From Paracoccaceae bacterium (GTDB taxonomy: Bacteria > Pseudomonadota > Alphaproteobacteria > Rhodobacterales > Rhodobacteraceae): DNA of 32,002 nt. A program made the translations under genes and the position numbers. This document shows positions 2,184 through 27,423 of the stretch, piece after piece (position 1 is the stretch's first letter; every line of letters starts with the position of its first letter). The notes beneath the pieces are model-generated. The model was not told the origin of the DNA, did not search any database, and saw only the letters and a program-made list of their open reading frames with translations. The stretch is taken from positions 1 to 32,002 of the forward strand of contig JALWTH010000011.1 of NCBI GenBank assembly GCA_027082975.1. The letters are read 5' to 3'.

Positions 2184-2196
2184 GTACTACAATACC
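2184..2196. promoter_or_regulatory. Operator-like motif GTACTACAATACC upstream of the benzoate-CoA ligase gene
   Basis: Matches the window-internal consensus GTAYTnnnRTACC also found at 16814, 26299 and 27411. Overlaps a plausible -10 (TACAAT 2188-2193) with a -35-like TTGCTT 2164-2169. Confidence 0.6.
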
Positions 2197-2234
2197 TGAA
2201 AAGGGATTGAAAGTGGTTTGGGAGGGCCGCCTTC

Positions 2235-3773
2235 ATGGACACATCCAGGATTTACAACGCAGCCACCGCGCTGCTGGATGCCAATATCGAGCGCGGATAT
2301 GGCGACAAGCCCGCATTCATCGATTCCACCCGCACCCTGACCTATCGCGACTTGCAGCGCGAAAGCTGCAAGGTGGCCAACATGCTCACCGCGCTGGGCG
2401 TGGCGCGCGAGGTGCGCGTGGCGCTGCTCCTGCATGACACGGTGGCCTATCCGGCGGTGTTCTGGGGGGCGATCCGGGCCGGGATCGTGCCGGTCTGCCT
2501 CAATACCCTGCTCACCGCCGAGCAATACCGCTACATGCTCGAAGACAGCCGCGCCCAGGTGCTGATCGTCTCTGAGCCGCTGCTGGAAGTGGTCGCACCG
2601 CTGCTCGACGACCTGCCGGCGCTCAAGCATGTGATCGTCGATGGCGGCGAGGGCGAGCGCCCGCGCCTGGCCGAACTCATGGCCGAGGCCTCCGACAGCT
2701 TCGAGACCGCCCCGACCAACCCGGACGAGACCGCCTTCTGGCTCTATTCTTCCGGCTCCACCGGCGCGCCCAAGGGGGTGCGCCACGTGCATACCTCGCC
2801 GCAATATATCGCCGATACCTACGGGAAAAACGTGCTCGGCATCCGCCATGATGACGTGTGCTTCTCTGCCGCCAAGATCTTCTTTGCCTACGGGCTGGGC
2901 GCCTCCATGGCGCTGCCCATGTCGGTGGGGGCGACCACGGTGCTGCTCACCGGGCGGCCCACGCCCGAGTCGGTGCTCGAGACCATGCACGCCCACAACC
3001 CGACCCTGTTCTTCGGCGTGCCCACGCTTTATGCCGCCATGCTGGCCGACGAGAACTGCACCCCCGAAAATGCGTCCAACGCCCTGCGCCTGTGCATCTC
3101 TGCCGGCGAGGCCCTGCCCGAGGATATCGGCCACCGCTGGGAGGCGCGCATGGGGGTGCCGATCCTCGACGGGATCGGCTCCACAGAGATGCTGCATGTC
3201 TTTCTGTCGAACCGCCCCGGCGATATCCGCTACGGCACGTCGGGCCGCGAATTCGAAGGCTACCGGCTGAAGCTGGTCGATGAAGACGGCAACGAGGTGG
3301 CCGATGGCGAGCTCGGCGAATTGCTGGTCTCGGGCGACAGCGCCGGCGACGGCTACTGGAACCAGCGCGCCAAGAGCCGCGCCACCTTTCAGGGGCTGTG
3401 GGTGCGCACCGGCGACAAGTATACCCGCGATTCCGAGGGGTACTATCACTATTGCGGGCGCACCGACGACATGTTCAAGGTCTCCGGGCGCTGGACCTCG
3501 CCCTTCGAGATCGAACAGGCGCTGGTGGCCCATGACGCGGTGCTTGAGGCCGCCGTGGTCGCCCATCACGAGGGCGACGGGCTGATCAAGCCCAAGGCCT
3601 TTGTCATCCTCACCGAGGGCCAGCCGCCATCCGAAGCGCTGTTCGAGGAGCTGAAAGCCCACGTCAAGCAAGCCGTGGGAGTCTGGAAATACCCGCGCTG
3701 GATCGAGGTGCTGGATGAACTGCCCAAGACCGCAACCGGCAAGATACAGCGCTTCAAGCTCAGGCGCTGCTGA
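2235..3773 (+). CDS. badA: Benzoate-CoA ligase family protein
   Basis: 512 aa adenylate-forming enzyme: YSSGSTGAPKGVRHVH P-loop, GxGSTEMLH, KxSGRWxSPFEIE, PKTATGKIQRFKLR C-terminal motif; the N-terminal half resembles BadA/BclA. Confidence 0.88.
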   Translation: MDTSRIYNAATALLDANIERGYGDKPAFIDSTRTLTYRDLQRESCKVANMLTALGVAREVRVALLLHDTVAYPAVFWGAIRAGIVPVCLNTLLTAEQYRYMLEDSRAQVLIVSEPLLEVVAPLLDDLPALKHVIVDGGEGERPRLAELMAEASDSFETAPTNPDETAFWLYSSGSTGAPKGVRHVHTSPQYIADTYGKNVLGIRHDDVCFSAAKIFFAYGLGASMALPMSVGATTVLLTGRPTPESVLETMHAHNPTLFFGVPTLYAAMLADENCTPENASNALRLCISAGEALPEDIGHRWEARMGVPILDGIGSTEMLHVFLSNRPGDIRYGTSGREFEGYRLKLVDEDGNEVADGELGELLVSGDSAGDGYWNQRAKSRATFQGLWVRTGDKYTRDSEGYYHYCGRTDDMFKVSGRWTSPFEIEQALVAHDAVLEAAVVAHHEGDGLIKPKAFVILTEGQPPSEALFEELKAHVKQAVGVWKYPRWIEVLDELPKTATGKIQRFKLRRC

Positions 3774-3785
3774 AGGAGCTTCACA

Positions 3786-4334
3786 ATGCTGGAAATCGTG
3801 ATCCTCGGCCGGGGCGGGCAGGGCGCTCAGACGGCCGGCAACCAACTGGCGCGCGCGCTGTTCGACGAGGGGCTGTTCGTGCAGGTCTTTGCCACCTATG
3901 GCGGCGCGCGGCGCGGCACGCCGGTGGCCTCTTCGCTGCGCGCCGATACCCGACCGATCCGCCTGCGCTCCGATATCACCCGGGCAGACGCGCTGCTGTG
4001 CTTTGACGAAAGCCTGCTGAACGAAGCGTTTCTCAGGCGCGGGCGAGAGGGCGCGCTGGTGGTGGTGAACTCGGCCCGCGAGGCGGCGGATTTCACGGTG
4101 GCGGACCGGCGGATCGTCCCGCTGGACGGGCGCGCCATCGCCCGGCGCAATGACATGGGCAAGGTGGTGAACTCCGCCCTGCTGGGAGGCTTTGCCGCCG
4201 CTCTCGGCCAGCCGGCGCTTGAAAGCATCTGCGCGGTGATCGAGCAGACCGCCCCGGCAAAGGTCGCCCAGAACCTCGCCGCCTGCCGCGAGGCCCATGC
4301 GCTGGTCGCCGGGCAGCTGGAGGAAATGGCATGA
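3786..4334 (+). CDS. padE: 2-oxoacid:acceptor oxidoreductase gamma subunit; probable phenylglyoxylate dehydrogenase subunit (PadE-like)
   Basis: ILGRGGQGAQTAGNQLARALFDEG gamma-domain signature; sits 12 nt after the ligase and overlaps the next gene by ATGA. Confidence 0.75.
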   Translation: MLEIVILGRGGQGAQTAGNQLARALFDEGLFVQVFATYGGARRGTPVASSLRADTRPIRLRSDITRADALLCFDESLLNEAFLRRGREGALVVVNSAREAADFTVADRRIVPLDGRAIARRNDMGKVVNSALLGGFAAALGQPALESICAVIEQTAPAKVAQNLAACREAHALVAGQLEEMA

Positions 4335-5956
4335 ACAAGCAGGCGCTCTCCCCGCTCTGGACCCACCTCACCAGCGAGGGCAACAGGACCGGTACCTGGC
4401 GCGCCGCCCTGCCGCGCTATCAGGACCAGCCCTCGCCCTGCCTCGGCGCCTGCCCCGTCTCCGGGCGCATCGCCACATGGATCGGCCATGTGGAGGATGG
4501 CGACCTGCGCGCCGCCTGGGAGGTGCTGAGTGATAACAACCCGTTTCCCGCCATCGCCGGGCGCATCTGTCACCACCCCTGCGAGACCGCCTGCAACCGC
4601 GCGCAGCTGGATGAAACCGTGAGCATCTGCGCGCTGGAGCGCCATGTGGGCGATGCGGCCCTGGCGGCGGGCTGGGGGTTTGCGGCCGGGCCTGAGCGGG
4701 GCGTTTCGGTCGCCGTGATCGGCGGCGGGCCGGCCGGGCTGTCGGCCGCCTATCAGCTGCGCCGGGCGGGCATTGCCGTCACGCTCTACGAGGCGCGCGA
4801 GGCGCTGGGCGGGCTGATGCGCTACGGCATCCCCTCCTACCGGCTGGCGCGCGAAGTGCTGGAGGGCGAGATCGCCCGGATCACCGCCATGGGGATCGAC
4901 CTGCGGCTCGGGGCCGGGGTGGAGGATGCCGCCGCGCTCGAAGCCCTCGCCGAGGCGCATGACGCGGTGTTCCTCGCCACCGGCGCGAGCCTGCCCAAGC
5001 GCTTGCCGGGGCTGGATTACGAGGCCGGGTTCGTCGTCGATTCCGCGGCCTTTCTCGCCGCGCCGGAAAGCGAGCAGAAGGCCATGACCGGCGCCCATGT
5101 ACTGGTGATCGGCGGCGGCTCGGCGGCGATGGACGTGGCCCGCACCGCCCGGCGGCTGGGGCGCAGGGTGACGGTGATGACGCTCGAGCCCGAGGGGCGG
5201 TTGCCCGCCCAGCAGGTCGAGCTCGAGGAGGCGGCCGAGGAGGGCGTGGCCTTCATCACCGGCGCGATGCTGAAGGCAGCGGAAGGGGGCGAAACAGTCA
5301 CTATCGCAGCGGTTAGGGTCACATTCAAACCCGGCGAGACACGCGGGCAGTTCAGTGTCAATGAGATCACGGACAGCGCCTTCACCCTTGCCTGCGACAC
5401 GATCATCCCCGCCATCGGGCAGGATGCCGACCTCGCCCGCTGGGGCACGGTTCTGGGCACGGATGGGCCGGTGGTGGGCCGGCGCGCCGGGCGCATCCGG
5501 GCCGGGGGCGACGTGGCGAGCATGGAGCGTTTCGTGACCCATGCGATCGGCATGGGCAAGGAAGCCGCGCGCGAGATCATTGCCGAGCTTGCCCCTGACG
5601 CGCCGCTCTCCGCCCCGCTCCCCGGCCCGCTGGTGGAGTATGCGCGCATCAACACCGCCTACCACCCCGGCCACCCCCGCGCCCGCCAGCCCAGCGCGCC
5701 GCTGCCCAAGCGCCTCGAGAGCTTTGCCGAGGTGCAGCAGCCGCTCCCCGCCGAGGCGGCCCGGCGCGAGGCGGAGCGCTGCTTTTCCTGCGGTACCTGC
5801 ATCCACTGCGACAATTGCTACCTCTACTGCCCGGACATGGCGATCACCCGGCTGTTTCCGGGCTACGAGGTCAAGACCGATTACTGCAAGGGCTGCGGGC
5901 TCTGCGTGGCCGAATGCCCCACCGGGGCCATTCACATGCGGGAGGATACCCCATGA
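4331..5956 (+). CDS. FAD/NAD(P)-binding oxidoreductase fused to a C-terminal 2x[4Fe-4S] ferredoxin domain; probable phenylglyoxylate dehydrogenase PadH+PadF-like fusion
   Basis: GltD-like body (VAVIGGGPAGLSAAYQLRRAG; HVLVIGGGSAAMDVARTARRLG) and C-terminal CFSCGTCIHCDNCYLYCPDMAI...CKGCGLCVAECPTGAI. Confidence 0.78.
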   Translation: MNKQALSPLWTHLTSEGNRTGTWRAALPRYQDQPSPCLGACPVSGRIATWIGHVEDGDLRAAWEVLSDNNPFPAIAGRICHHPCETACNRAQLDETVSICALERHVGDAALAAGWGFAAGPERGVSVAVIGGGPAGLSAAYQLRRAGIAVTLYEAREALGGLMRYGIPSYRLAREVLEGEIARITAMGIDLRLGAGVEDAAALEALAEAHDAVFLATGASLPKRLPGLDYEAGFVVDSAAFLAAPESEQKAMTGAHVLVIGGGSAAMDVARTARRLGRRVTVMTLEPEGRLPAQQVELEEAAEEGVAFITGAMLKAAEGGETVTIAAVRVTFKPGETRGQFSVNEITDSAFTLACDTIIPAIGQDADLARWGTVLGTDGPVVGRRAGRIRAGGDVASMERFVTHAIGMGKEAAREIIAELAPDAPLSAPLPGPLVEYARINTAYHPGHPRARQPSAPLPKRLESFAEVQQPLPAEAARREAERCFSCGTCIHCDNCYLYCPDMAITRLFPGYEVKTDYCKGCGLCVAECPTGAIHMREDTP

Positions 5957-7113
5957 ACCGGATGCTGAACGACGACCTGCAACTTCTCAACGGCAATCAC
6001 GCGGTCGCCTGGGGGGTGCGGCTGGCCGGGCCCGACGTGGCGCCGGTCTATCCGATCACCCCGCAGACGCCGATCCTCGAAAAGCTGATCGCCTTTCAGG
6101 CCGAGGGGAAGTTTGACTGCGACCTGCTCACCCCCGAGAGCGAGCACAGCGCCATGGCCGCCGCCGTGGCGGCCTCTGCCACCGGGGCGCGGGTATTTAC
6201 CGCGACTTCCAGCCAGGGGCTGATGCTGATGCACGAGCTTCTGCATTATGCCTCCGGCGCGCGGATGCCGATCGTGATGTTCAATGTCAACCGCACCCCC
6301 GCCGCGCCCTGGGGCTTCTGGCCGGACCAGACCGACAGCCTCTCCCAGCGCGATACCGGCTGGGTGCAGCTTTACAGCGAGCACCCGCAGGAGAGCCTCG
6401 ATACGGTGGTGCAGGCCTTTCGCATCGCCGAAGGCTGCGAATTGCCGGTGATGGTGAACCACGATGCCTTTTATGTGAGCCACGCGGTCGAGCCGGTAAG
6501 CGTGCCGGAGGCGGAGGCGGTGCGGGACTTCCTGCCGCGCCGGGAACGCTCGCTGTGGCTCGACACGGGGCTCGGCCGCTCCATCGGCGCGCCTGCCGGG
6601 CAGGAGGCCTGGCACGCCTCGCGCCGCGAGATGGATGCGGCCATGGCGCGGGTCGAAGGGCTGACGCGCGAGGCGGGCAGGCTCTGGGGCGAGGCCACCG
6701 GGCGGGTCTATGACGTGCTGGAAGCATATCGCATGGAGGGGGCTCAGCTTGCCTTCGTCACCATGGGCAGCATGGCCGGCACCGCGCGCGAAGCGGTGGA
6801 TGCGCTGCGCGAGGCGGGGCTTGCCGCCGGGCTGGTGCGGCTGCGCCTGTTTCGCCCCCTGCCCGCCGAGGCCCTGCGCGCGGCGCTTGCCGATATCCCC
6901 GTGGCGCTGGTGCTCGACCGCAATTTCTCGCCGGGCATGGGCGGGATCGTGCATCAGGAGCTTGCCGCCGCGCTTTACGGCCATGATGGGCCGCGCCTGC
7001 ACGGCTTTCTCGCCGGGGTGGGCGGGATCAACGTGCCGGTGGAGCGGCTGGTGGCGCTGGCGCGCGAATACCGCGACGCCGCCCCGACCCATGCACCGAT
7101 CTGGCTGGAGTGA
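5953..7113 (+). CDS. padG: 2-oxoacid:acceptor oxidoreductase alpha subunit; probable phenylglyoxylate dehydrogenase PadG-like
   Basis: NGNHAVAWGVRLAGPDVAPVYPITPQTPILEKL, then EHSAMAAAVAASATGARVFTATSSQGLMLMHE, typical of POR/VOR alpha subunits. Start set at the ATGA overlap, not the longer ORF at 5815. Confidence 0.8.
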   Translation: MNRMLNDDLQLLNGNHAVAWGVRLAGPDVAPVYPITPQTPILEKLIAFQAEGKFDCDLLTPESEHSAMAAAVAASATGARVFTATSSQGLMLMHELLHYASGARMPIVMFNVNRTPAAPWGFWPDQTDSLSQRDTGWVQLYSEHPQESLDTVVQAFRIAEGCELPVMVNHDAFYVSHAVEPVSVPEAEAVRDFLPRRERSLWLDTGLGRSIGAPAGQEAWHASRREMDAAMARVEGLTREAGRLWGEATGRVYDVLEAYRMEGAQLAFVTMGSMAGTAREAVDALREAGLAAGLVRLRLFRPLPAEALRAALADIPVALVLDRNFSPGMGGIVHQELAAALYGHDGPRLHGFLAGVGGINVPVERLVALAREYRDAAPTHAPIWLE

Positions 7114-7118
7114 GAGAG

Positions 7119-7997
7119 ATGGACATTTCCCGATACGAAGACCACGGCCAGTTCTGCTCCGGCCACGCGGCCTGCGGCGGCTGTGTCGAGGCGCTGACCA
7201 TGCGGGTGATCCTGAACGAGATCGGCCCGGACGCGGTGGGGGTGGTGGCGCCGTCCTGCACGGCGGTGATCCTCGGGGGTTATCCGACCAGTTCGGCGCG
7301 CATCCCGTTCATCCACGGGTTGATCGAGACCGCCGCCGCCATGGGCACCGGGGTCAAGCGCGGGCTCGCCGCGCAGGGCAAGGGCGACACCACGGTGGTC
7401 TGTTTCGCCGGCGACGGCGGCACCTATGACATCGGCATCCAGGCGCTTTCCTCCGCCGCCGAGCGCAATGAGGACATCCTCTATGTCTGCTTCGACAACG
7501 AGGGCTACATGAATACCGGCGGGCAGAAGTCCTCTTCCACGCCCCACGGCGCGGCCACCGGCTCGACCCCGCTGGGCAAGGCGACGGTGAAGAAGAACCT
7601 GATCGAGATCATGGCCGCCCACCGCATCCCCTATATCGCCACCGCCAGCCCGTCGCACCTCGCCGACCTCGCGGCCAAGGTCCGCAAGGCCAGGGCGATC
7701 CGTGGCATGAAGGTGCTGATCGTGGTGATCCCCTGCCTGCCCGGCTGGGGGGTCGCGGACGACTCGGCGGTGCGGGTCGCGCGCCTGGCGGTGGAGAGCG
7801 GGGTGTTTCCGCTCTTGGAGGTCGAGGACGGCGTGACTTGGCGAATCGCCAGCGACAAGACCCGTCCGATAGACGCCTATCTCGCAGGCCAGAAGCGCTA
7901 CCGACACCTGAGCGATGGCGAGAGGGAGGCGCTTCAGGCGGAAGTGGATGCCGGCTTTGCCCGGCTGAAGGCGCTGGAGGCAATCAACCCCGGCTGA
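7119..7997 (+). CDS. padI: 2-oxoacid:acceptor oxidoreductase beta (TPP) subunit; probable phenylglyoxylate dehydrogenase PadI-like
   Basis: GHAACGGCVEAL, CFAGDGGTYDIGIQALSSAAERNEDILYVCFDNEGYMNTGGQ TPP-binding region typical of POR beta. GTG at 7110 is an alternative start. Confidence 0.8.
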   Translation: MDISRYEDHGQFCSGHAACGGCVEALTMRVILNEIGPDAVGVVAPSCTAVILGGYPTSSARIPFIHGLIETAAAMGTGVKRGLAAQGKGDTTVVCFAGDGGTYDIGIQALSSAAERNEDILYVCFDNEGYMNTGGQKSSSTPHGAATGSTPLGKATVKKNLIEIMAAHRIPYIATASPSHLADLAAKVRKARAIRGMKVLIVVIPCLPGWGVADDSAVRVARLAVESGVFPLLEVEDGVTWRIASDKTRPIDAYLAGQKRYRHLSDGEREALQAEVDAGFARLKALEAINPG

Positions 7998-8077: not shown

Positions 8078-8482
8078 ATGAGCGAGAAACTGGAAGTCGG
8101 CACCTCCGAGAGCCGCAAGGTCACCATCGACAAGGACCGCACCATCGGCTTCATGGGCGAAGAGGGGCGGGTCTATGCCACCCCGAGCCTGGTCCATGAC
8201 ATCGAGCATACCTGCCGCGACATGATCGTGGCGCGCCTGCCCGAGGGGCAGGACAGCGTGGGCACGATCGTCAACATCGCCCATCTGGCCCCCACCCTGC
8301 TGGGCCAGGAAGTGGAGATCACCGTCACCGTGGCCGAGCTGGAGGGCCGGCGGGTGGCGCTGGACGTGGTGGCGAAGGATGCGCTCGACACGATCTGCAA
8401 GGGCCGCCACGAGCGCTTCATCGTCGATGTGGACAAGACCGTGGAGCGGCTCAGGGCCAAGGCCGCGAAGCTGGCGGGCTAG
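8078..8482 (+). CDS. FlK-like hotdog-fold acyl-CoA thioesterase
   Basis: 134 aa; ATPSLVHDIEHTCRDMI...DSVGTIVNIAHLAPTLLG...AKDALDTICKGRHERFIVD. Thr35/Glu43/His69 reproduce the spacing of the FlK T42/E50/H76 triad. Confidence 0.75.
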   Translation: MSEKLEVGTSESRKVTIDKDRTIGFMGEEGRVYATPSLVHDIEHTCRDMIVARLPEGQDSVGTIVNIAHLAPTLLGQEVEITVTVAELEGRRVALDVVAKDALDTICKGRHERFIVDVDKTVERLRAKAAKLAG

Positions 8483-8485
8483 GCG

Positions 8486-11200
8486 ATGAAGACCTCGGTT
8501 GCCTCCTATTGCTACCAATGCGTCGCCGGGCCGGACCTGATGCGGGTCGATATCGAGGACGGCGTGCCGGTGGGCATCCGCCCCAGCGAGGCGGCCGAGG
8601 CGATCCACCCGGCCCATGGCAAGGTCTGCGTCAAGGCTTTCGGCCTGATCCAGAAGACCAACAACCCGCACCGGATCAAGACCCCGATGCTGCGCACCAA
8701 TCCGAAAAAGGGCCGCGGCGAGGATCCGGGCTGGAAGCCGGTCAGCTGGGACGAGGCGCTGGGGCTGATCTGCGCGCGGCTGAACGCGGTGCGCGAAAAG
8801 GGCCTTCTGGACGAAAGCGGCTTTCCCCGCGTGGCGGCGAGCTTTGGCGGCGGCGGCACGCCGACTTCCTATATGGGCACGTTTCCGGCCTTTCTCGCCG
8901 CCTGGGGGCCGGTGGACATGTCTTTCGGCTCCGGTCAGGGGGTCAAGTGCTACCACTCCGAGCATCTCTACGGCGAGTTCTGGCACCGCGCCTTTACCGT
9001 CTGCCCGGATACGCCGCTGGTGGAATACATCATCAGCTTCGGCGCCAATGTCGAGGCTTCCGGCGGGGTCTGCGGGGTGCGCCGCCATGCCGATGCTCGC
9101 GACCGGGGGGCGAAGCGGGTGCAGGTGGAGCCGCACCTGTCGGTCACCGGGGCGTGCAGCGCCGAGTGGGTGCCGATCCGGCCCAAGACCGACCCGGCCT
9201 TCATGTTCGCGCTGGTGCATGTGCTGCTGCACGAGGTCGAGCGCGCGCGCCTCGATCTGCCGTTTCTCAAAGAGCGCTCTTCCTCGCCCTATCTGGTGGC
9301 GGAAAACGGCTACTACCTGCGCGACCCCGAGACCCGCAAGCCGCTGATCTGGGATCGGAAAAGGGGCCAGGCCGTGCCCTTTGACACCGAGGGCGCGGAC
9401 CCGGCGCTGGAGGGCAGCTTCACCGCTTCGGGGCTCGAGATCGGCCCGGACGATACCGAGTGGCGGCACGAAAACGCCCCGGTCCAGACTGCCTTCGCCA
9501 AGCTGGTCGAGCATGTCGCCCCCTACAGCCCCGAATGGGCCGGCGAGATCTGCGACGTGCCCGCCGAGACCATCCGCAAGGTGGCGTTCGACTATCTCGA
9601 CCACGCGCGGGTCGGGGCGACCACCATGGTGGACGGGCAGGAAATGCCCCTGCGCCCGGTGGCGATCAGCCTGGGCAAGACCGTCTCCAACGGCTGGGGC
9701 GGCTACGAATGCACCTGGGCGCGCACCCTGATGGCGGTGCTGGTGGGCGCGCTCGAAGTGCCCGGCGGCACGCTGGGCACCACGGTGCGGCTGAACCGTC
9801 CGGCCGACAATCGCTGGTCCAGCGTGGTCCCCGGCCCGGACGGCTTCATGAATTACCCGATGAACCCGACGAAGAAGGGCGAATGGGTCGAATCCGGCCC
9901 CTCGCGCCACGCCCACCAGACCCTGGTGCCGCTGGCGGCCAATTCCCCGTGGAGCCAGGCGCTTGGCCCCACCCATCTGGCATGGATGTGGCAGGGCAAG
10001 GGAGCCGAGCACCTGCCCAAGCCGACGCCGCCCGACGTGTGGTTCGTCTATCGCACTAATCCGGCGATCAGCTTCTGGGATACCGGCAAGGTCGAGGACG
10101 CCATCGCCAATTTCCCCTTCACCGTCGCCTTTGCCTATACGCTCGACGAGACCAACCACATGGCTGACGTGCTGCTGCCCGAATGCACCGATCTGGAGGG
10201 GCTGCAACTGATCCGCATCGGCGGCTCCAAATATATCGAGCAATTCTGGGACCATCAGGGCTTTGCCCTGCGTGACCCGGCGGCGAAGCCGATGGGTGAG
10301 GCGAAGGATTTCACCTGGATTTCCACCCAGCTTGCCAAGGGCACCGGGCTTCTGGAGAAATACAACGCCGCCATCAATCGCGGCGCCCACGGCGTGCGGC
10401 TCTATGGCGAGGGCTGGGATCACTCGCTGGAGCCGGGCGAAGAGCACGGGGTGGAAGAAATCTGGGACGCCACCTGCCGCGCCGCCTCGGCCGAACTGAC
10501 CGGGGGCGAGGCGCATGACGGGCTCGAATATTTTCGCGAGCATGGCTTCCGCACCCGGCCGTTTCCCCGCGCGCGCTGGTATCTCTACCCGGCCATGGTC
10601 GAGCAGGGCCTGCGCTTCGAGCTGCCCTATCAGGAGCGGCTCAAGCGCATCGGCGCCGAGCTTGGCGCCCGCCTGCACGAAAAGGGCATCACCTGGTGGG
10701 ACCGGCAATTGCGCGAATACGAGCCGCTGCCGCATTACCAGGACCTGCCCGGCCTGTGGAGCCAGGCGCTTGAGGAAGCCTATGACGTCAGGATCGGCGA
10801 TTATCCCTTCTGGCTGCTCACCGCGCGCTCCATGCAATACAGCTGGGGCGGCAATGTCGCGATCCAGATGATCCACGAAGTCGCCGCCAATGTCGCCGGT
10901 CATGGCGGCGTGGTGATGAACCCGCAGGCGGCGGCGCGGCTGGGGGTGGAGGAGGGCGACGTGGTGCGCATCCTCTCGCCCAGCGCCGAGACCAGCGGCA
11001 GGGCGATCCTGCGCCAGGGTATCCGCCCCGACACGCTGCTGATGATCGGCCAGTTCGACCACTGGAAGACCCCCTTTGCCGCCGGGCACAGGGCCCCGAG
11101 CATGAATGCGCTCACGCCCATGCTCATGGCCCTGACCGACGCCACCGGCTCCGGCGCCGACCTGGTGCGGGTGCGGGTCGAGAAGGGGGGCCGGCCATGA
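8486..11200 (+). CDS. padB: Molybdopterin-dependent oxidoreductase catalytic subunit; probable phenylacetyl-CoA:acceptor oxidoreductase PadB-like
   Basis: 904 aa bis-MGD family: N-terminal Cys cluster, PVSWDEALGLI, VFRTNP-type region (VWFVYRTNPAISFWDTGK), FAYTLDETNHMADVLLPE, C-terminal MNPQAAARLGVEEGDVVRI. Supported by neighbours (phenylglyoxylate dehydrogenase, PA-CoA ligase). Confidence 0.75.
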   Translation: MKTSVASYCYQCVAGPDLMRVDIEDGVPVGIRPSEAAEAIHPAHGKVCVKAFGLIQKTNNPHRIKTPMLRTNPKKGRGEDPGWKPVSWDEALGLICARLNAVREKGLLDESGFPRVAASFGGGGTPTSYMGTFPAFLAAWGPVDMSFGSGQGVKCYHSEHLYGEFWHRAFTVCPDTPLVEYIISFGANVEASGGVCGVRRHADARDRGAKRVQVEPHLSVTGACSAEWVPIRPKTDPAFMFALVHVLLHEVERARLDLPFLKERSSSPYLVAENGYYLRDPETRKPLIWDRKRGQAVPFDTEGADPALEGSFTASGLEIGPDDTEWRHENAPVQTAFAKLVEHVAPYSPEWAGEICDVPAETIRKVAFDYLDHARVGATTMVDGQEMPLRPVAISLGKTVSNGWGGYECTWARTLMAVLVGALEVPGGTLGTTVRLNRPADNRWSSVVPGPDGFMNYPMNPTKKGEWVESGPSRHAHQTLVPLAANSPWSQALGPTHLAWMWQGKGAEHLPKPTPPDVWFVYRTNPAISFWDTGKVEDAIANFPFTVAFAYTLDETNHMADVLLPECTDLEGLQLIRIGGSKYIEQFWDHQGFALRDPAAKPMGEAKDFTWISTQLAKGTGLLEKYNAAINRGAHGVRLYGEGWDHSLEPGEEHGVEEIWDATCRAASAELTGGEAHDGLEYFREHGFRTRPFPRARWYLYPAMVEQGLRFELPYQERLKRIGAELGARLHEKGITWWDRQLREYEPLPHYQDLPGLWSQALEEAYDVRIGDYPFWLLTARSMQYSWGGNVAIQMIHEVAANVAGHGGVVMNPQAAARLGVEEGDVVRILSPSAETSGRAILRQGIRPDTLLMIGQFDHWKTPFAAGHRAPSMNALTPMLMALTDATGSGADLVRVRVEKGGRP

Positions 11201-12789: not shown

Positions 12790-12826
12790 CGGGTGAGGAC
12801 GCGGGCAGCAAGGGAGGAAAAGAGGG

Positions 12827-16913: not shown

Positions 16914-17972
16914 ATGGCGCGGCGCTGGCAGATGGTTTCGCAGGGAGAGCCCCTGCAGATGGTCGAATTCGAGCCCGCCCCCCCGGGCCCCGGCGAGGTG
17001 GTGGTGGAGGTGGCGGGCTGCGGCGTCTGCCATACCGATCTGGGCTTCTACTACGATGGCGTGCGCACCAATCACGCCCTGCCGCTCACCCTGGGCCACG
17101 AGATTTCCGGCGTGGTCGCGGCTGCCGGGGAGGGGGCCGAGGACTGGATCGGGCGCGCGGTGATCGTCCCCGCCGTGATGCCCTGCGGCGAATGCGATGC
17201 CTGCAAGCGCGGCAGGGGCACGATCTGCAAGGCGCAGAAGATGCCGGGCAACGACATAGAGGGCGGCTTTGCCTCCCACATCACCGTGCCGGCGCGCGGG
17301 CTCTGCCCGGTGGATACCGAAAAGCTCGCGGCCCAAGGGCTGAGCCTCGCCGATGTCTCGGTGGTGGCCGATGCGCTCACCACCCCGTATCAGGCCGCGG
17401 TGCAGGCCGGGATCGGCGCGGGCGATCTGGTGATCGTCAACGGCGTGGGCGGGGTCGGCGGCTATGCGGTGCAGGTCGCCCACGCGCTGGGCGCTACCGT
17501 GGTGGCGATCGACGTGGTGGCGGAAAAGCTCGCCGCCGTGGCCCGGTATGGCGCCGCGTTCACGCTGGACGCCCGCGAACATGACCCGCGCAGCCTCAAG
17601 GGCGCGATCCGCGACTTTGCCCGCGAAAACGGCCTGCGCTCGCGCGAATGGATCGTGATGGAATGCTCCGGCACCGCGACCGGGCAGAAGGCCGCCTTTG
17701 GCCTGCTCACCCATGGCGGCACCATGTGCGTGGTCGGCTTCACCATGGACAAGGTGGAGGTCAGGCTTTCGAACCTCATGGCCTTTCACGCCCGCCTCCT
17801 GGGCAATTGGGGCTGCCCGCCCGAGCTTTACCCCGGCGCGCTGGCGCTGGTCGAGGAGGGCAAGGTCAAGCTCGCGCCCTTCATCGAGCACAGGCCGCTC
17901 GACGAGATCAACGAAGTCTTTCGCGCCGTCCATGCGGGCGAGACGATCAAACGCCAGATCCTGGTGCCCTGA
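16914..17972 (+). CDS. had: 6-hydroxycyclohex-1-ene-1-carbonyl-CoA dehydrogenase
   Basis: Zn-dependent MDR alcohol dehydrogenase ([65 protein letters not shown]), directly upstream of oah-dch-bcr. Confidence 0.92.
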
Positions 17973-17983
17973 AGGAGAATGGA

Positions 17984-19096: not shown

Positions 19097-19860
19097 GCGA
19101 TTGCCTGAGAACGACGACCGAGCTTGACGGCAAGCTGTTGCGCCTGACGCTGAACCGGCCCAAGGCGAATATCGTCGATGCCGGGATGATCGCCGCGCTC
19201 ACCCATGCCTTTGACAAGGCCGCCCATGACAGCGCCCTTGCCGCGGTGCTGCTGGATGCCGAGGGGCCGCATTTTTCCTTTGGCGCCTCGGTCGAAGAGC
19301 ACCTGCCCGAGCAATGCGAGGGGATGCTCGCGAGCCTGCACAAGCTGATCCGCATGATGCTGGCCTTTCCGCTGCCGGTGCTGGTGGCGGTGCGCGGCCA
19401 GTGCCTGGGCGGCGGGCTTGAGGTCGCCATGGCCGGGCACATGATATTCGCAGCGCCGGATGCGCAGCTGGGCCAGCCGGAGATGAAGCTCGGCGTTTTC
19501 GCGCCGGCCGCAAGCGTGCTCATGCCCGAGCGCATGGGCCAGCCGCTGGCGCAGGATCTGCTGCTCTCGGGCCGCTCCATGGTGGCCGGTGAGGCGCTGG
19601 AGGCAGGCCTCATCGACCACCTGACCGATACGCCGGAGGATGCCGCGCGCGCCTATGTGGAAAAGCACCTGGCGGTGAAGAGCACCTCTTCCCTGCGCCT
19701 TGCGGTGCGGGCAGCGCGCGAGCCCTTCCTTGCCAGGGTATTGCCGCGCATCGACGAGGTGGAGCGGCTCTATCTGGAGGAACTCATGCAAACCCGCGAC
19801 GCGGTGGAGGGGCTTGAAGCCTTCCTCGCCAAGCGCCCAGCCAAGTGGGAGAACAGATGA
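19093..19860 (+). CDS. dch: Cyclohexa-1,5-diene-1-carbonyl-CoA hydratase
   Basis: Crotonase family; HFSFGASVEEHLPEQCEGMLASLHKLIRMMLAFPLPVLVAVRGQCLGGGLEVAMAGH. GTG start in a GTGA overlap with oah. Confidence 0.92.
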   Translation: MSDCLRTTTELDGKLLRLTLNRPKANIVDAGMIAALTHAFDKAAHDSALAAVLLDAEGPHFSFGASVEEHLPEQCEGMLASLHKLIRMMLAFPLPVLVAVRGQCLGGGLEVAMAGHMIFAAPDAQLGQPEMKLGVFAPAASVLMPERMGQPLAQDLLLSGRSMVAGEALEAGLIDHLTDTPEDAARAYVEKHLAVKSTSSLRLAVRAAREPFLARVLPRIDEVERLYLEELMQTRDAVEGLEAFLAKRPAKWENR

Positions 19861-21032
19861 CCGGGAAAACCACAAAAGAAATCGTCGCCCGCGCCGAGGC
19901 GCTTTATGACGACCTCGATTTCACCGCCGCGCGCGCGTGGAAGGAGGCCGAGCCGGGCCGTCATGTGATCGGGCATCTGCCGATCTACGTGCCGCGCGAG
20001 CTGATCCATGCCGCCGGGATGCTGCCCTTGGGCATCATGGGCGGGGGCGACCGGCTCGAGGTGATCCATGGCGACGCCTATTATCAGAGCTACATCTGCC
20101 GCATCCCGCGCTCGACCATCGAGCTTGGCCTTTCCGGGCGGCTCGATTTCGTCTCGGGGATGCTGTTTCCCTCGATCTGCGACGTGATCCGCAACCTTTC
20201 CGGCATGTGGATGACGCTGTTTCCCGATGTTTATGTCAAGTATTTCGACACCCCCCAGACCTTCGAAGACGAGATCGGCGGGCAGTTCTACATCGGCGAG
20301 ATGCGCGAGCTTCTGGAGGGGCTCGAGCGGATCGCGGGCCGCAAGGTGACCGATGACGACATTAACGCCTCGATCGCCGTCTACAACGAGAACCGCGCGC
20401 TTCTGCGCGAGCTTTACGCCCTGCGCGCCGAACTGCCCTGGCAGGCGCCCGCCTCCGAAGCCTATCTGGTGGCCCGCGCGGGCCTGGTGCTGCCGGTGGA
20501 GGAGCACAACGCGATGCTGCGCGACTATATCGACGCGGCGCGCGCCACCAGACGCCCGATCAAGGACAACGCCAAGGTGATCCTCACCGGCATGTTCTGC
20601 GAACAGCCGCCGCTCAACCTGATCAAGTCGCTGGAGCTTGCCGGCTGCTATGTGGTGGACGACGATTTCATGCTGGTCGCCCGCTGGCTGACCGAGGAAG
20701 TCCCCACCGATGGCGACCCGCTTGAAGCGCTCAGCCACGCCTTCCTGCATCACTCCATGTCCACCGCTGCCAAATACGAGCCGGACGAGGCGGAGAAGGG
20801 CAAGTTCCTGATCCGGGCCATGGAGCGCACCGGGGCCGAGGGGGTGATCTTCGCTTCCACCTCCTTCTGCGACCCGGCGCTGCTCGACCGCCCCATGCTC
20901 CAGCATGTGCTGGACGAGGCAAACATCCCCTACATCGCCTTCAAATACGCCGAGAACAGCGGCCAGATGCAGCCCATCCGCGAGCAGGCGGGCACCTTCG
21001 TCGATTCAATCAAACTGTGGAGCGCGGCATGA
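19857..21032 (+). CDS. bcrC: Benzoyl-CoA reductase subunit C (class I, ATP-dependent)
   Basis: HGD-D-type fold: HVIGHLPIYVPRELIHAAGMLPLGIMGGG, YQSYICRIPRSTIELGLSGRLDFVSGMLFPSICDVIRNLSGMW; ATGA overlap with dch. Confidence 0.95.
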   Translation: MTGKTTKEIVARAEALYDDLDFTAARAWKEAEPGRHVIGHLPIYVPRELIHAAGMLPLGIMGGGDRLEVIHGDAYYQSYICRIPRSTIELGLSGRLDFVSGMLFPSICDVIRNLSGMWMTLFPDVYVKYFDTPQTFEDEIGGQFYIGEMRELLEGLERIAGRKVTDDDINASIAVYNENRALLRELYALRAELPWQAPASEAYLVARAGLVLPVEEHNAMLRDYIDAARATRRPIKDNAKVILTGMFCEQPPLNLIKSLELAGCYVVDDDFMLVARWLTEEVPTDGDPLEALSHAFLHHSMSTAAKYEPDEAEKGKFLIRAMERTGAEGVIFASTSFCDPALLDRPMLQHVLDEANIPYIAFKYAENSGQMQPIREQAGTFVDSIKLWSAA

Positions 21033-22336
21033 AACCTACCATCGTGAAAGCCCGGCCCGATGACGTCCAGAAGGACGCCTCGATGATCCTGCAAAAAGAG
21101 ATGATGGCGCGCCATTACGACCGTCTCTGCGATGCGCCGATGACCGGGGAAAAGGTCGCCTCGACCTTCGTGCCGGGCAACCTCAACGAACTGATCATGT
21201 GCTTCGATCTCGTCAACAACCTGCCCGAGGTCAACGCGATCCAGTCCGGCCTGCGCAAGAAGTCCGGCCAGTACATCATGGAGGCGGAGCGCTCCGGCCA
21301 TTCCGAGGATGTCTGCACCTATGTGAAATCCGACATCGGCATGATGATGAAGGGCAATATCGGCCCCAATGGCCGCGAACTGCCCAAACCCGACGTGCTG
21401 CTTTTGAGCTATACGGGCTGTTTCACCTTCCTCAAGTGGTTCGAGCTCTTGCGCGAGCAGTACAAATGCCCGACCATCTTCTTGCAGACCCCTTACATGG
21501 CCGACGGCAAGATCACGCCCAACATGATCCAGTACATGGTCAGGCAGCTGAAGGAAGACGTGATCCCGACGCTGGAGGAGGTCTCGGGCGTCAAGTTCGA
21601 CATCGACCGCCTGCGCGAATACCTGAAGAAATCCGCCCAGGCCGAGGATGATCTGGTGGCGGTGCTGCAAAGCGCGAAGCACAAGCCCAGCCCGATCGAC
21701 GCCTATTTCGGCGGCATCTACTATATCGGCCCGATCTTCGGCGCCTTTCGCGGCACGGATGACGCGATCGAATACTACAAGTTCCTGCGCCGCGAGGTGG
21801 AAGAGCGCATCGCCAAGGGGCTCGGCCCGATCACGCCCGACGGCACCATGGAGGGCGAGAAATACCGCCTCGTGGTCGAAGGCCCGCCCAATTACACCTC
21901 CTTCCGCCAGTTCTGGAAGATGTTCTACGAAGAGGGCGCGACCGTGGTCGCCTCGTCCTATACCAAGGTCGGCGGCACCTATGATTTCGGCTTCCGCCAC
22001 GACCCGGACCGCCCGCTTGAGAGCCTCGCCGAATATTGCCTGAACGTCTACACCAACCGCAGCTTGCCCATGCGCATCGACATGCTGGTGAATTACATCA
22101 ACGAATACGAGGCCGACGGGCTGCTGATCAACTCGATCAAGTCCTGCAACTCGTTCTCGGCAGGCCAGCTTCTGATCATGCGCGAGGTGGAAAAGCGCAC
22201 CGGCAAGCCCGCGGCCTTCATCGAGACCGATCTGGTGGACCCGCGCTATTTCTCGGCGGCCAATGTCAAGAACCGGCTGGAGAGCTACTTCCAGATGGTC
22301 GAGCAGAAACGTTCGGGGAAAGGAGCGGCGGCATGA
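21029..22336 (+). CDS. bcrB: Benzoyl-CoA reductase subunit B
   Basis: [55 protein letters not shown]; second HGD-D-like subunit, ATGA-coupled. Confidence 0.95.
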
Positions 22337-23667
22337 GCGCGATGAAGACCTTTGTCGGCATTGACCTGGGCTCCACCACCACCAAGGCGGTGTTGCTCGA
22401 CGAGGAGGGCCAGGTTCTGGGGCGCGGCATCACCAATTCGCGCTCCAATTACGACACCGCCTGCCGGGTGGCCCAGCAGGAGGCGCTGGTGGATGCGCGC
22501 TTCACCCTGTTTCGCCGCCAGTTCGGCTCCGACCAGGCGCTGAGCGCCGAGGCCGAGGCCTTTCTCGACGCGCTGGAGCAGAATTTCCGCCTCGAGCAGT
22601 TTCTCGAGCAGCTTGCCGACCTCGAAGAGACCTGCACCCGTCTGGTGCAGGGCGAGCGTTTTGCAAAGACGGGCGACGGGCTCAAGGCGGCGCTGGCCGA
22701 GATATTCAGCCGCCTGCGCGCCGAGGCCCCGGCGCTCTACGGCCCCAATTCCACCCGCAAGTCGGACTTCTTCCGCGACATTGCCGGCTCGCGCTACATC
22801 AACCTCGCCGAAGAGGTTGCGCGCGAAATGGGCGTCGCCAATGACGCGCTGATCAACCTCTACGACAAGTCGATCATCGCGGTGGAAAACCGCCCGCCCT
22901 CGGGCTCGCTCGACGAAAAGTTCCAGAAGGCGCTGAAGCGGGTCACGTCCTCCGGCGAGGGGGTGACCGCCGATCTGGCGCAAAAGGCGGAGAACGCGCT
23001 CGGCGTCGCGCTTGAGGAGACATACCTGGTCGGCACCGGCTACGGGCGCGTCACCCTGCCCTTTTCCAAGGAACATATCCGCTCCGAGATCCTCTGCCAC
23101 GGGCTCGGCGCGCACATGATGTATCCCAAGACCCGCACCGTGCTCGACATCGGCGGGCAGGATACCAAGGGCATTCAGGTGGATGAAAACGGCATCGTCG
23201 AGAATTTCCAGATGAACGACCGCTGCGCCGCCGGCTGCGGCCGCTATCTGGGCTATATCGCCGACGAGATGAACATGGGCCTGCACGAGCTCGGGCCGCT
23301 GGCGATGAAGTCCTCCAAGCCCGCGCGGATCAACTCGACCTGCACCGTCTTTGCCGGCGCCGAGCTGCGCGACCGGCTGGCCTTGGGCGAGAAGCGCGAG
23401 GATATCCTCGCCGGCCTGCACCGCGCCATCATCCTGCGCGCCATCTCGATCCTGTCGCGCTCCGGCGGCGTGCAGGACCAGATGACCTTTACCGGCGGGG
23501 TGGCCAAGAACGAGGCCGCCGTGCGCGAACTCAAGAAGCTGATCCGCGAAAATTACGGCGACGTGACCATCAATATCGACCCGGATTCGATCTATACCGG
23601 CTCGCTCGGAGCGGCGGAATTTGCCCGCCGCGCCGCCGAGGGCCGCATGGAAGGAGTAGAGGCATGA
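22333..23667 (+). CDS. bcrA: Benzoyl-CoA reductase subunit A (BadF/BadG/BcrA/BcrD ATPase family)
   Basis: [71 protein letters not shown]. Confidence 0.95.
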
Positions 23668-24509
23668 CACTGGCAGCAGGCATTGATCTGGGGACCGGCG
23701 CGGTCAAGGCAGCGATCTTTCGGGTCGAGAACGGCCGCGAAGAATGGCTCTCCAGGGCCACCCTGCGCATCCGCTCGCGCGACCCGATGCAGCTTTCGCG
23801 CGAGGCCTTTGACCAGGTGCTGGAGGATGCGGGGCTTTCCGAGGGCGACATCGACTATATCGCCACCACCGGCGAGGGCGAGAGCCTCGAATGGCATACC
23901 GGCCATTTCTACTCCATGACCAGCCACGCCCGCGGCGCGCGCTACCTCGAGCCGCGCGCCGGCGCCATCCTCGATTGCGGCGCCCTGCATGGCCGGGCGA
24001 TGATCATGGATGAAAGAGGCAAGGTCACCAATTACAAGATGACCAGCCAATGCGCATCCGGCTCCGGCCAGTTCCTCGAAAACATCGCCCGCTATCTCGG
24101 CATCGCCCAGGACGAGATCGGCGCGCTTTCGATGCAGGCCGACGACCCGGAGGAAGTCAGCTCGATCTGCGCCGTTCTGGCCGAGACCGACGTGATCAAC
24201 ATGGTCAGCCGCGGCATCACCGCGCCCAATATCCTCAAGGGTATCCACCTCTCCATGGCCGGCCGCCTCGCCCGCCTGCTCAAGGCGATCGGCGTCAGGA
24301 ACGACGTGGTGATGATGACCGGCGGGCTGGCGACCGACGAGGGTCTGTGCGAAGCCCTGCGCGAGAAGCTCGCAGCGCTCAGGGGAGTCGATGCCAAAGT
24401 GGTAAACCACCCCGACAGCATCTATGCCGGCGCCATCGGCGCGGCCCTCTGGGGGGCGTTCCGGTTTGACAAGCTGGCCGCCACCGGACAAGTCTTGAAA
24501 GCATCCTGA
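23664..24509 (+). CDS. bcrD: Benzoyl-CoA reductase subunit D (BadF/BadG/BcrA/BcrD ATPase family)
   Basis: [73 protein letters not shown]. Confidence 0.95.
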
Positions 24510-24793: not shown

Positions 24794-25765
24794 TTATTTC
24801 AGCCCGCGCACCAGCACCAGCCGCTGTGCGGGCGTGAAACCCATCGCCCCCAGATAGGTGATCAGGGCGGTATCGTCCCAGTCGATCTCGGTGCGAATGG
24901 TCTCGACGCGCAGCGTGGCGAGATTGGCGATCAGCTGCGCCATCAGCGCCCGCCCCACGCCCTGGCCCCGATAGCCCGGATCGACCCCGAGCGTGTCCAT
25001 CTCGGCTTCGGTGCCGGTATGGCCGAACTCGCCGAAATCCACCCGCGCCATGATGAAGCCGACCGGGTAGCCCTCCATCTCGGCCACCAGCGATACCCGC
25101 ACGCCGCTTTCATGCAGCGTGTCATGCATCTTGCGGCTGAGATAATCGCTGCGGTCGGTGCCGGTATTTTCGCGATCAATGGCGATGATCTTGCCAAGGT
25201 CGCCTTCCCGCATCGAGCGCACCAGCACCCGTTCGCGCGACAGCGCATCCGCCGCATCGCCCTCGGGCGAAGAGTAATCTGGCTCCGCATCCCACTGATC
25301 CTCGCGCTCGCCCTCCAACTCCTGGGCCATCAGCTCGGTGGTGCGGGTCAGGACCAGCCGCGGGGCGAGGGCAAAGCCGGCCCTGGCGAGAAAGCCCGCC
25401 ATCGGGCTGCCCCACTCGATCTGGCTCGAAAGCGTCGCCACCCCCTTGCCCGCAAGCACTCGCGCCACATCATCCAGCAGCGCCTGCCCGTAGCCCTTGT
25501 GCCCATGGGCCGGGTCCACCCCGATCGCATCCAGCGCCGCGCTGGCGCCGGGCTTGCCGAATTCACCGCTTACCAGCTTGGCAAAGGCAAAGCCCACCAG
25601 CGCGCCCCCTTCCTCGAGCCCCGAATAGACGAAATCCTTCGGCCGGCTGGTTGCCGCCGCCAGGCGCTTTTCGAAATATCCGCGCCGGGAGATACCCGTC
25701 GCCGCCTGGTCCATGGCGATGACGGCTTCCAGGTCGTTAGCGTTCAAGGGTCTGATATTGTGCAT
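24794..25765 (-). CDS. Tandem GNAT-domain N-acetyltransferase
   Basis: Two homologous halves (IRPLNANDLEAVIAMDQAATG..YFEKRL...ALDAIGVDPAHGHKGYGQAL and VRSMREGDLGKIIAIDRENTG..YLSRKM...EMDTLGVDPGYRGQGVGRAL). Start set at MHNIRPL. Confidence 0.88.
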   Translation of the reverse strand: MHNIRPLNANDLEAVIAMDQAATGISRRGYFEKRLAAATSRPKDFVYSGLEEGGALVGFAFAKLVSGEFGKPGASAALDAIGVDPAHGHKGYGQALLDDVARVLAGKGVATLSSQIEWGSPMAGFLARAGFALAPRLVLTRTTELMAQELEGEREDQWDAEPDYSSPEGDAADALSRERVLVRSMREGDLGKIIAIDRENTGTDRSDYLSRKMHDTLHESGVRVSLVAEMEGYPVGFIMARVDFGEFGHTGTEAEMDTLGVDPGYRGQGVGRALMAQLIANLATLRVETIRTEIDWDDTALITYLGAMGFTPAQRLVLVRGLK

Positions 25766-25772
25766 GATTTCC

Positions 25773-26273
25773 TCAGTGGGTGCTGGCATAGAGAGTGGAA
25801 AGGGCCATGTCCTCGTCATCGTCCAGCAGATCGTCGAGCGCCGGCAGCAGCGCCATTTCTTCTTTCTGGATATGCATCAGCATCCGCTCGATCAGCTCCC
25901 CGGCCAGAGCGCGAAACTGCCCCCAGCTCTGCGCGCTGAACCCCTCTCCCAGCGCCGCGCGGGCCATCTCCGCCACCTGCCGGCCCAGCGGCAGGAGCGC
26001 CGCATGCTCGCCCCGCAGATGTTCGCCGATCGCCACGTCGCCCATTTCCTCGAGCCGGGTGAAAAGCTCGTTTTCCTCAAAGGCAAAGTGGCCGTCGATC
26101 TCTTCCTGAATGGTGCCGGACGCGGCTTCGAGCACCTTCTGAACCTGCGCATCGGTCACATCCGGCGCCTTCCTGCGGGCGCGAGCGAGCAGGTCATCCA
26201 GCCCCTCGATCACCTCGATCGTGGCCCGATGATCCTCGTGCAACAGCTGCGCGGTACGGCGTGAAAACATCAT
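25773..26273 (-). CDS. Hemerythrin-domain protein
   Basis: LLHEDHRATIEV, DGHFAFEENELFTRLEE, LRGEHAALLPLG, RMLMHIQKEEMALLPALD His/Glu ligand pattern. Start set at MMFSRRTAQ; the upstream ORF extension runs through the operator-like motif. Confidence 0.88.
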   Translation of the reverse strand: MMFSRRTAQLLHEDHRATIEVIEGLDDLLARARRKAPDVTDAQVQKVLEAASGTIQEEIDGHFAFEENELFTRLEEMGDVAIGEHLRGEHAALLPLGRQVAEMARAALGEGFSAQSWGQFRALAGELIERMLMHIQKEEMALLPALDDLLDDDEDMALSTLYASTH

Positions 26274-26298
26274 GTCGCGGTCCCTTTTCTCAAAACAA

Positions 26299-26311
26299 GT
26301 ATTATAATACC
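26299..26311. promoter_or_regulatory. Operator-like motif GTATTATAATACC upstream of the hemerythrin/GNAT genes
   Basis: Contains a perfect 12-bp palindrome GTATTATAATAC and an embedded TATAAT; third half-site AATACC follows. About 26 bp from the hemerythrin start. Confidence 0.65.
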
Positions 26312-26331
26312 AAAATACCGAAATCAAGCCA

Positions 26332-26430: not shown

Positions 26431-26868
26431 TTACTTCGCTGCCACCTCGGCGCGGCGCTCCTGTGCCTTCTTGCGCTTCTCGATCTGCATCAGCATGGTA
26501 GCGAGCGTGATCGAGCCATAGGTGGCATTGGCGATGTCGTTGATTTCCTTGGTCACGTCAAAGAGCGCCCATTCCTCCGGGTTCGCCTGTGACGGGTCGG
26601 CGAGGCGGCACTTCACCTCGGTCTCCTCGAACAGGCTGATGATGTCATGGAGCGTCACCCGCCGCGCATTGCCGGTAAAGGAATATCCCCCGCCCACACC
26701 GCGCACCGACTGCACCAGCCCCGCGCGCCCCAGCGTCAGCAGGACCTTGGCCAGGTGATGCGCCGAGACGCGGTATTTCTCGCCGATTTCGGCAGTCGAG
26801 ATCGGCCGGTCCGGGTTGGCGGCCAGCTCGATCAGGGCGAGGATGGCGAGGCGGCTGGATTTTTGCAA
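26431..26868 (-). CDS. Rrf2-family transcriptional regulator (BadM-like)
   Basis: ALIELAANPDRPISTAEIGEKYRVSAHHLAKVLLTLGRAGLVQSVRGVGGGYSF wHTH signature of Rrf2; located between the bcr and hcr gene sets. Confidence 0.85.
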   Translation of the reverse strand: MQKSSRLAILALIELAANPDRPISTAEIGEKYRVSAHHLAKVLLTLGRAGLVQSVRGVGGGYSFTGNARRVTLHDIISLFEETEVKCRLADPSQANPEEWALFDVTKEINDIANATYGSITLATMLMQIEKRKKAQERRAEVAAK

Positions 26869-26888
26869 AGCGTACTCCTTGCAGGCGG

Positions 26889-27341
26889 TTACGGGGCGTC
26901 GTCCAGGTCGAGCTCCAGCTGGATATAGGGGCCGGCGACCATGCCTTCGGAGCGGAAGAAGGACATCAGCAGCCGGTCGTCGCGGCGCACCATGTTGCGC
27001 ACCTTGCTGACCCCGGCAGCGCGGAAGCGCGCGCAGATCTCGCGAAACAGGGCCTCGCCGATATGCTGTTCGCGCCGCTCCGGGTCCACCGAGACGGCAA
27101 AGACCCAGCCGCAGGGCTCGGAGCCGAATTCCCAGCCGCGCACCTCGCCGGCGATCAGCCCGGCCAGCTCACCGCCGCTGTCGGCCAGCAGAAAGAACCG
27201 CTTGTCCTGGCGTCGTGTGCCGAATCGCTCGAAGATATCGGCCCAGTAATCCGGCTTGGCCTTCCCGGTCACCCGCGCATCCAGCGCGACCACGGCAGCG
27301 AGGTCATCCTCCGTGGCCCGGCGGATTTCCGGTGCATCCAT
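26889..27341 (-). CDS. Single-domain GNAT N-acetyltransferase
   Basis: IRRATEDDLAAVVALDARVTGKAKPDYWADIFERF...GWVFAVSVDPERREQHIGEALFREICARF...; resembles both halves of the 24794-25765 protein. Confidence 0.8.
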   Translation of the reverse strand: MDAPEIRRATEDDLAAVVALDARVTGKAKPDYWADIFERFGTRRQDKRFFLLADSGGELAGLIAGEVRGWEFGSEPCGWVFAVSVDPERREQHIGEALFREICARFRAAGVSKVRNMVRRDDRLLMSFFRSEGMVAGPYIQLELDLDDAP

Positions 27342-27410
27342 CCGTGAGCCCCGATCTGTTTTCTGCGGTGGCTGGCCCATGAAAAGCCTGTACCCTTTCC
27401 GGTTTTTTCA

Positions 27411-27423
27411 GTATTATGGTACC
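27411..27423. promoter_or_regulatory. Operator-like motif GTATTATGGTACC in the GNAT-rrf2 / hcrC divergent promoter region
   Basis: Matches GTAYTnnnRTACC; 69 bp from the GNAT start and 51 bp from the hcrC start. Confidence 0.6.

Follow-up and report, generated by a model that had tools for sequence, protein, structure and literature searches.

A conserved 26-bp dyad as the candidate operator of a probable BadM-type Rrf2 repressor in a benzoyl-CoA island of a Paracoccaceae bacterium

Introduction

BadM is an Rrf2-family repressor that acts on the badDEFGAB promoter of Rhodopseudomonas palustris and is released from it by acetamidobenzoates, which arise when the GNAT acetyltransferase BadL acetylates aminobenzoates (PMC6191541). 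Clusters containing badL and badM also occur in Magnetospirillum magneticum and Geobacter metallireducens (PMC6191541). In this study, a stretch of 32,002 nucleotides from a Paracoccaceae bacterium (contig JALWTH010000011.1; hereafter, the window) was analyzed, which carries an island for anaerobic phenylacetate, 4-hydroxybenzoate and benzoyl-CoA metabolism together with an rrf2 gene and an adjoining GNAT gene. The subject of the analysis is a palindromic motif, GTAYTnnnRTACC, that recurs at four promoter regions of this island and that may be the operator of the Rrf2 protein.

An initial annotation had claimed these four copies and had proposed a single Rrf2 regulon spanning the island. The best reading of the sequence is that Rrf2 and GNAT would form one switch for the whole island and, by analogy with R. 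palustris, that this switch would be a broadened variant of the BadL–BadM switch. The 26-bp extent of the dyad, the match to BadL–BadM, the pad and tandem-GNAT members of the regulon and the occurrence beside the box pathway are new relative to the initial annotation. A literature search found no paper describing this operator, an Rrf2 regulon over these units or a link between Rrf2 and the box pathway, although this is a weak negative, as many subscription papers lay outside its scope.

Results

Four sites in the window

All four copies of GTAYTnnnRTACC were present exactly where they had been placed, beginning at positions 2184, 16814, 26299 and 27411, whereas 0.02 exact matches were expected from dinucleotide shuffling and none of 100 shuffled windows contained four. 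Across the genome the motif was far from a random scatter: a pattern search of 2,987,039 bases returned six exact matches, four of which lie on this 32-kb contig, about 1% of the genome. The remaining two (contigs C216 and C412) scored -14.5 and -3.6 with a weight matrix trained on relatives. The 13-mer proved to be the core of a longer dyad, TAWWnnnGTAYTAnARTACCnnWWTA, and a genome-wide search for this 26-bp form, allowing at most two mismatches, returned only the four window sites. A search for the 13-mer with one mismatch is uninformative, because its 90 genome matches were fewer than those of a reversed-pattern control; it is the flanks that carry the information. The sites are as follows, without strand and with scores from the held-out matrix.

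2177–2202 (core 2184–2196): operator 1, SDR/bclA divergent promoter; score 28.0, third in the window
2169–2194: second, overlapping placement of operator 1, 8 bp upstream; score 22.5
16807–16832 (core 16814–16826): operator 2, korA/had divergent promoter; score 25.1
26292–26317 (core 26299–26311): operator 3, before the hemerythrin–tandem GNAT genes; score 36.2, the best in the window
26300–26325: second, overlapping placement of operator 3, 8 bp away; score 16.9
27404–27429 (core 27411–27423): operator 4, GNAT-rrf2/hcrCAB divergent promoter; score 29.8

The distances to start codons are short: 38 bp to bclA and 65 or 92 bp to the SDR gene, depending on the start chosen, for operator 1; 45 bp to korA (ATG 16768) and 87 bp to had for operator 2; 25 bp to the hemerythrin gene (ATG 26273) for operator 3; and 30 bp to the GNAT gene (ATG 27380) and 51 bp to hcrC (ATG 27475) for operator 4.

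The matrix was trained on 27 sites of relatives, with the window and its near twin L015 excluded; in these sites the arms are W-rich and A occupies position -5 in 26 of the 27. Applied to the window, it ranked the four sites first, followed by the two placements shifted by 8 bp, and 15 Markov-shuffled windows contained nothing scoring at least 8. Shifted placements are also frequent in the training set, where a shift of -8 bp scored above 15 in nine of 27 sites and a shift of +8 bp in six, an effect due in part to the 8-bp recurrence of TA within the dyad; dimers might bind the operator in two overlapping registers.

Conservation in orthologous promoters

Footprinting in the promoters of relatives, which the initial annotation had suggested as a check, found the motif at orthologous positions. 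In relatives that carry the GNAT-Rrf2 pair, the dyad recurs at the SDR/bclA-pad, kor/had-bcr, hemerythrin–tandem GNAT and GNAT-rrf2/hcr promoters, and some loci have further copies at thioesterase-padB and padE. Sites orthologous to operator 1 were found in eight loci (L011, L012, L060, L063, L071, L072, L073 and L097); operator 2 has a counterpart in every korA/had promoter seen, within the family and in out-groups, and the dyad was present in all kor/had-bcr or kor/bcrC promoters seen; operator 3 is kept in L010, L011, L014, L059, L066, L097, L153 and others. The dyad also extends to other alphaproteobacterial families, including Magnetospirillum.

Promoters outside the training set scored highly with the same matrix. 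In three bcr contigs unlinked to rrf2, the kor/had promoters reached 35.0 (L154), 37.3 (L155) and 24.8 (L156), and the hemerythrin promoter of L153 reached 38.7. In Magnetospirillum moscoviense (L151) the scores were 30.3 before the tandem GNAT gene and 17.6 at kor/had, and a Hyphomicrobiales genome (L152) had sites of 28.8 and 26.8. Among loci from other alphaproteobacterial families (L097–L116), the values included 40.1 (L097), 36.6 (L108), 31.8 (L106) and 31.5 (L107), plus others. The exact 13-mers examined in Rrf2-negative genomes nearly all scored below 10, the exceptions being those of G069 and one at 20.8 in G010. A naive coding mask labelled 13 of 53 held-out matches scoring at least 17 as coding; the mask over-extends open reading frames (ORFs), because tblastn coordinates put these 13 a short way before a gnat, bclA, hemerythrin, tandem GNAT or kor gene.

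Some further observations concern the same promoters. A conserved ACGGTAAT block adjoins the operator in korA/had promoters (window 16807–16846; L060, L061, L066 and L074), with TTGAC elements on each strand bordering the operator and this block; these are possibly two core promoters or the site of a second regulator. In one genome with Rrf2 (L051; G170 contig 3, 522), a strong dyad scoring 28.4 lies away from the known island and may mark an extra member of the regulon. A record titled Halieaceae, a gammaproteobacterial name (L011; JAAENL010000269.1), carries a full Rhodobacteraceae-like island, which could reflect either misbinning or recent transfer.

Association of the site with Rrf2

Among 298 family genomes, benzoyl-CoA reductase (Bcr) was found in ten and Rrf2 in nine (the source genome counted), with both in eight; the corresponding Fisher value of 2.9e-13 is inflated by inheritance and transfer of the island. 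Together with the joint conservation of the dyad and GNAT-rrf2, this sharing supports the assignment of the dyad to the Rrf2 protein, as proposed at the outset. The dyad precedes GNAT-rrf2 across families in which the neighbours differ, namely Bcr, BoxC/BoxB or a molybdenum (Mo) hydroxylase. In L100, L106, L107 and L116 (by family assignment) and in L115 (by inspection), the pair and its dyad neighbour the BoxC/BoxB genes of aerobic benzoyl-CoA degradation. On an Agrobacterium tumefaciens plasmid (L119; NZ_CP123840.1), a weaker dyad at 8374–8399 lies between a Mo-hydroxylase operon and the GNAT gene of a GNAT-Rrf2 pair. Because GNAT-rrf2 carries the dyad beside Bcr, beside Box and on this plasmid, the site follows the regulator rather than one pathway. 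The copies next to BoxC/BoxB suggest that in Alphaproteobacteria the aerobic route through benzoyl-CoA is controlled by Rrf2. A search of plasmid records for Bcr returned distant dehydratases only. Behind GNAT-Rrf2 on the Agrobacterium plasmid are an ABC transporter and a benzoate-CoA ligase, an uncharacterized aromatic-acid island.

The Rrf2 protein and its GNAT partner

The regulator and its partner are encoded as follows.

26431–26868, minus strand: Rrf2-family regulator (BadM-like), 145 amino acids, one cysteine (TIGR00738, Pfam Rrf2, predicted fold)
26889–27380, minus strand: single-domain GNAT acetyltransferase (BadL-like), directly upstream of rrf2 (Pfam Acetyltransf_1)

The Rrf2 protein scored 95.3 bits against TIGR00738 (cutoff 73.3) and 1.7e-25 against PF02082, but fell below the equivalog cutoffs of IscR (53.8 versus 207.55), NsrR (41.4 versus 182), RirA and CymR. 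Its predicted structure (predicted local distance difference test 90) is nearest in fold to CymR and also matches RsrR and IscR. Eleven named loci hold close relatives with 54–97% identity, and the pairing with GNAT is maintained in nearly all relatives. Magnetospirillum genomes hold a matching pair (GNAT 43–54% and Rrf2 about 50% identical); Rrf2 matches at 26% identity from this genus were set aside as belonging to another Rrf2 group when these better counterparts were found. Sensing of the IscR type through an iron–sulfur (Fe–S) cluster was rejected as a general mechanism: the three conserved cysteines of a cluster are missing, the scores lie under the curated cutoffs, and many of the 41 homologues have no cysteine at all, so that a cluster cannot be general. 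The window protein has one cysteine, Cys87, which is nearly invariant in the Rhodobacteraceae group. Cysteine-free homologues and a CymR-like fold fit a sensor of small molecules rather than an Fe–S sensor.

Genes under the four operators

The units that would be governed by the dyads are listed below.

1174–2091, minus strand: SDR-family oxidoreductase, divergent from bclA (Pfam adh_short), kept beside operator 1
2235–3773, plus strand: benzoate-CoA ligase family, bclA/badA (TIGR02262, 795.6 bits; cutoff 375.25)
3786–7997, plus strand: padEFGI-like phenylglyoxylate/2-oxoacid oxidoreductase subunits (PorC_KorC subfamily above cutoff)
8078–14137, plus strand: FlK-type thioesterase, padB/padCD-like Mo oxidoreductase and padJ-like phenylacetate-CoA ligase (profile matches)
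14223–16768, minus strand: korA-korB, 2-oxoacid:ferredoxin oxidoreductase (TPP_enzyme_C for korB)
16914–24509, plus strand: had-oah-dch-bcrCBAD, benzoyl-CoA reduction and ring cleavage (TIGR03201 dearomat_had above cutoff; BcrAD_BadFG 4.2e-84)
24794–25819, minus strand: tandem-domain GNAT of the hemerythrin operon, ORF start approximate (two Acetyltransf_1 stretches)
25773–26273, minus strand: hemerythrin HHE-domain protein (Pfam PF01814, 2.9e-13)
27475–31186, plus strand: hcrCAB, 4-hydroxybenzoyl-CoA reductase (TIGR03194 above cutoff)

The operon behind bclA encodes enzymes resembling those of phenylglyoxylate and phenylacetyl-CoA oxidation (pad), and its pad-like Mo enzyme has an Fe–S/membrane partner. 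Since PadE (87.5 versus 300) and PaaK (607 bits, slightly under 646) lie below their curated cutoffs, a phenylacetate/phenylglyoxylate substrate of the pad type is only presumptive. The tandem GNAT gene downstream of the hemerythrin gene is conserved in most relatives, and in M. moscoviense and the Hyphomicrobiales genome L152 a strong operator immediately precedes it. The two halves of its product each share 26–27% identity with the BadL-like GNAT, so its involvement in signal turnover, while plausible, is a guess.

Promoter overlap and proposed mechanism

At operator 4, a sigma70-like promoter for GNAT-rrf2 (TTGACT-18-TACCAT; minus strand, 27445–27416) has its -10 element inside the dyad. 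In promoters aligned by eye, TTGACC or TTGACG is kept just upstream of the dyad before had, and a TTG element is kept upstream of it before the hemerythrin gene. With these elements kept upstream, the dyad would cover the spacer and the -10 element.

A mechanism of three steps may be proposed. Firstly, as conservation shows, the 26-bp dyad is the common mark of the SDR/bclA-pad, kor/had-oah-dch-bcrCBAD, hemerythrin–tandem GNAT and GNAT-rrf2/hcr promoters. Secondly, a cluster-free Rrf2 dimer would bind the dyad over the spacer and -10 element, blocking all of these units including its own. Thirdly, by analogy with BadL–BadM, the co-transcribed GNAT would acetylate an aminobenzoate-like aromatic compound, the product of which would free Rrf2 from the DNA; this release would switch on substrate activation, electron supply, ring reduction and 4-hydroxybenzoyl-CoA reduction together. 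The operator and the regulon are strongly supported by sequence comparison, and co-conservation leads us to infer that Rrf2 binds the dyad. Taking the first two steps together, the four sites are very probably operators of the island's own BadM-type Rrf2 repressor. For the third step, release by the GNAT product, the analogy tips the balance only slightly in favour.

Discussion

The strongest alternative concerns the third step only: Rrf2 would bind the dyad but would respond to a signal other than a GNAT product, such as a CoA thioester (benzoyl-CoA or a different one), oxygen or the redox state, with GNAT serving a separate function. This is a serious possibility, though we do not favour it. 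MbdR, which regulates a related anaerobic pathway, is reported to respond to 3-methylbenzoyl-CoA (PMC4424350), and benzoyl-CoA is a common intermediate with the aerobic box pathway, beside which the module also occurs. The near invariance of Cys87 and the inclusion of hemerythrin in the regulon point in the same direction. However, redox or Fe–S sensing is at odds, as a general mechanism, with the many cysteine-free homologues, hardly any genome separates GNAT from rrf2, and in R. palustris it is acetamidobenzoates that release BadM, with BadL required, even if 10 mM was used in vitro.

Several observations weigh against Rrf2 as the repressor acting at all of these sites. Under strict criteria, a sigma70 scan supported a promoter at site 4 alone, and repression rather than activation is suggested by the overlap with promoter elements, which supports it short of proof. 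In Magnetospirillum, L113 and L114, no good site was found before gnat-rrf2, so autoregulation is not universal. Rrf2 was not detected in two genomes that carry sites: G069, of the same genus, has operators and bcr (L073 and L074) in 300 contigs, and in G246 a site and bcr occur in an assembly of about 1180 contigs. An assembly gap is the likely cause in both fragmented genomes, loss being the alternative for G069.

These two genomes would also suit a dyad that is the operator of an unlinked regulator, for example of the BadR/MarR or TetR type, with rrf2 merely one of its targets. We consider this improbable, as the dyad accompanies GNAT-rrf2 across families despite changed neighbours, no regulator other than Rrf2 was seen among the scanned ORFs of the window, and at 26 bp the dyad is close in length to operators of the Rrf2 type, for example the NsrR site of 23 bp. 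That the four motifs are a chance cluster was ruled out by the shuffles, the genome count, the held-out ranking and the 26-bp search, and is negligible in view of genome-wide exclusivity, conservation over dozens of genomes and the low scores (mostly below 10) of exact 13-mers outside islands, even though the motif was selected post hoc and lies in gaps of higher AT content than the window as a whole (67% GC).

With Rrf2 as the probable repressor at the four sites, what has been a repressor known chiefly for a single operon in a single phototroph would become a testable regulon with a defined operator in many aromatic-acid-degrading Alphaproteobacteria, and the operator would allow regulon members to be predicted in new genomes. 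The idea of an acetylated signal, introduced with BadL, can now be placed beside the aerobic box pathway as well, and the tandem GNAT and the hemerythrin, which share this operator, become new candidates for roles in turning over the signal and protecting against oxygen. More speculatively, GNAT-Rrf2 and its operator might be a portable benzoate-sensing module found throughout the class, wired to Bcr or Box according to lineage, in which the tandem acetyltransferase tunes or resets the acetylated signal; we offer this tentatively.

Comparison with known systems

The island shares with BadM–BadL an Rrf2 repressor gene and a single-domain GNAT gene linked to benzoyl-CoA reductase genes (PMC6191541). 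Its benzoyl-CoA reductase promoter carries the conserved dyad, a candidate operator where one is expected for BadM. It differs in that BadM is reported to act on badDEFGAB, whereas here the operator stands at four promoter regions (pad, kor, bcr, hcr, hemerythrin and tandem GNAT), and in having ring-cleavage genes of the had-oah-dch-bcrCBAD type. BoxR/BzdR of Azoarcus/Aromatoleum and other Betaproteobacteria likewise apply one regulator logic to aerobic and anaerobic benzoyl-CoA pathways, but belong to the helix-turn-helix XRE family and use a TGCA-repeat operator (PMC6449761); the Rrf2/GNAT module may play a comparable part in Alphaproteobacteria. CymR of Bacillus subtilis (2y75) is the closest solved fold to the Rrf2 protein, although it governs cysteine metabolism and is only about 29% identical. 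IscR, NsrR and RsrR share the Rrf2 winged-helix fold and dyads of similar length (23 bp for NsrR), but their cluster-ligating cysteines are absent from the island Rrf2 protein, the IscR and NsrR scores of which are far under the cutoffs.

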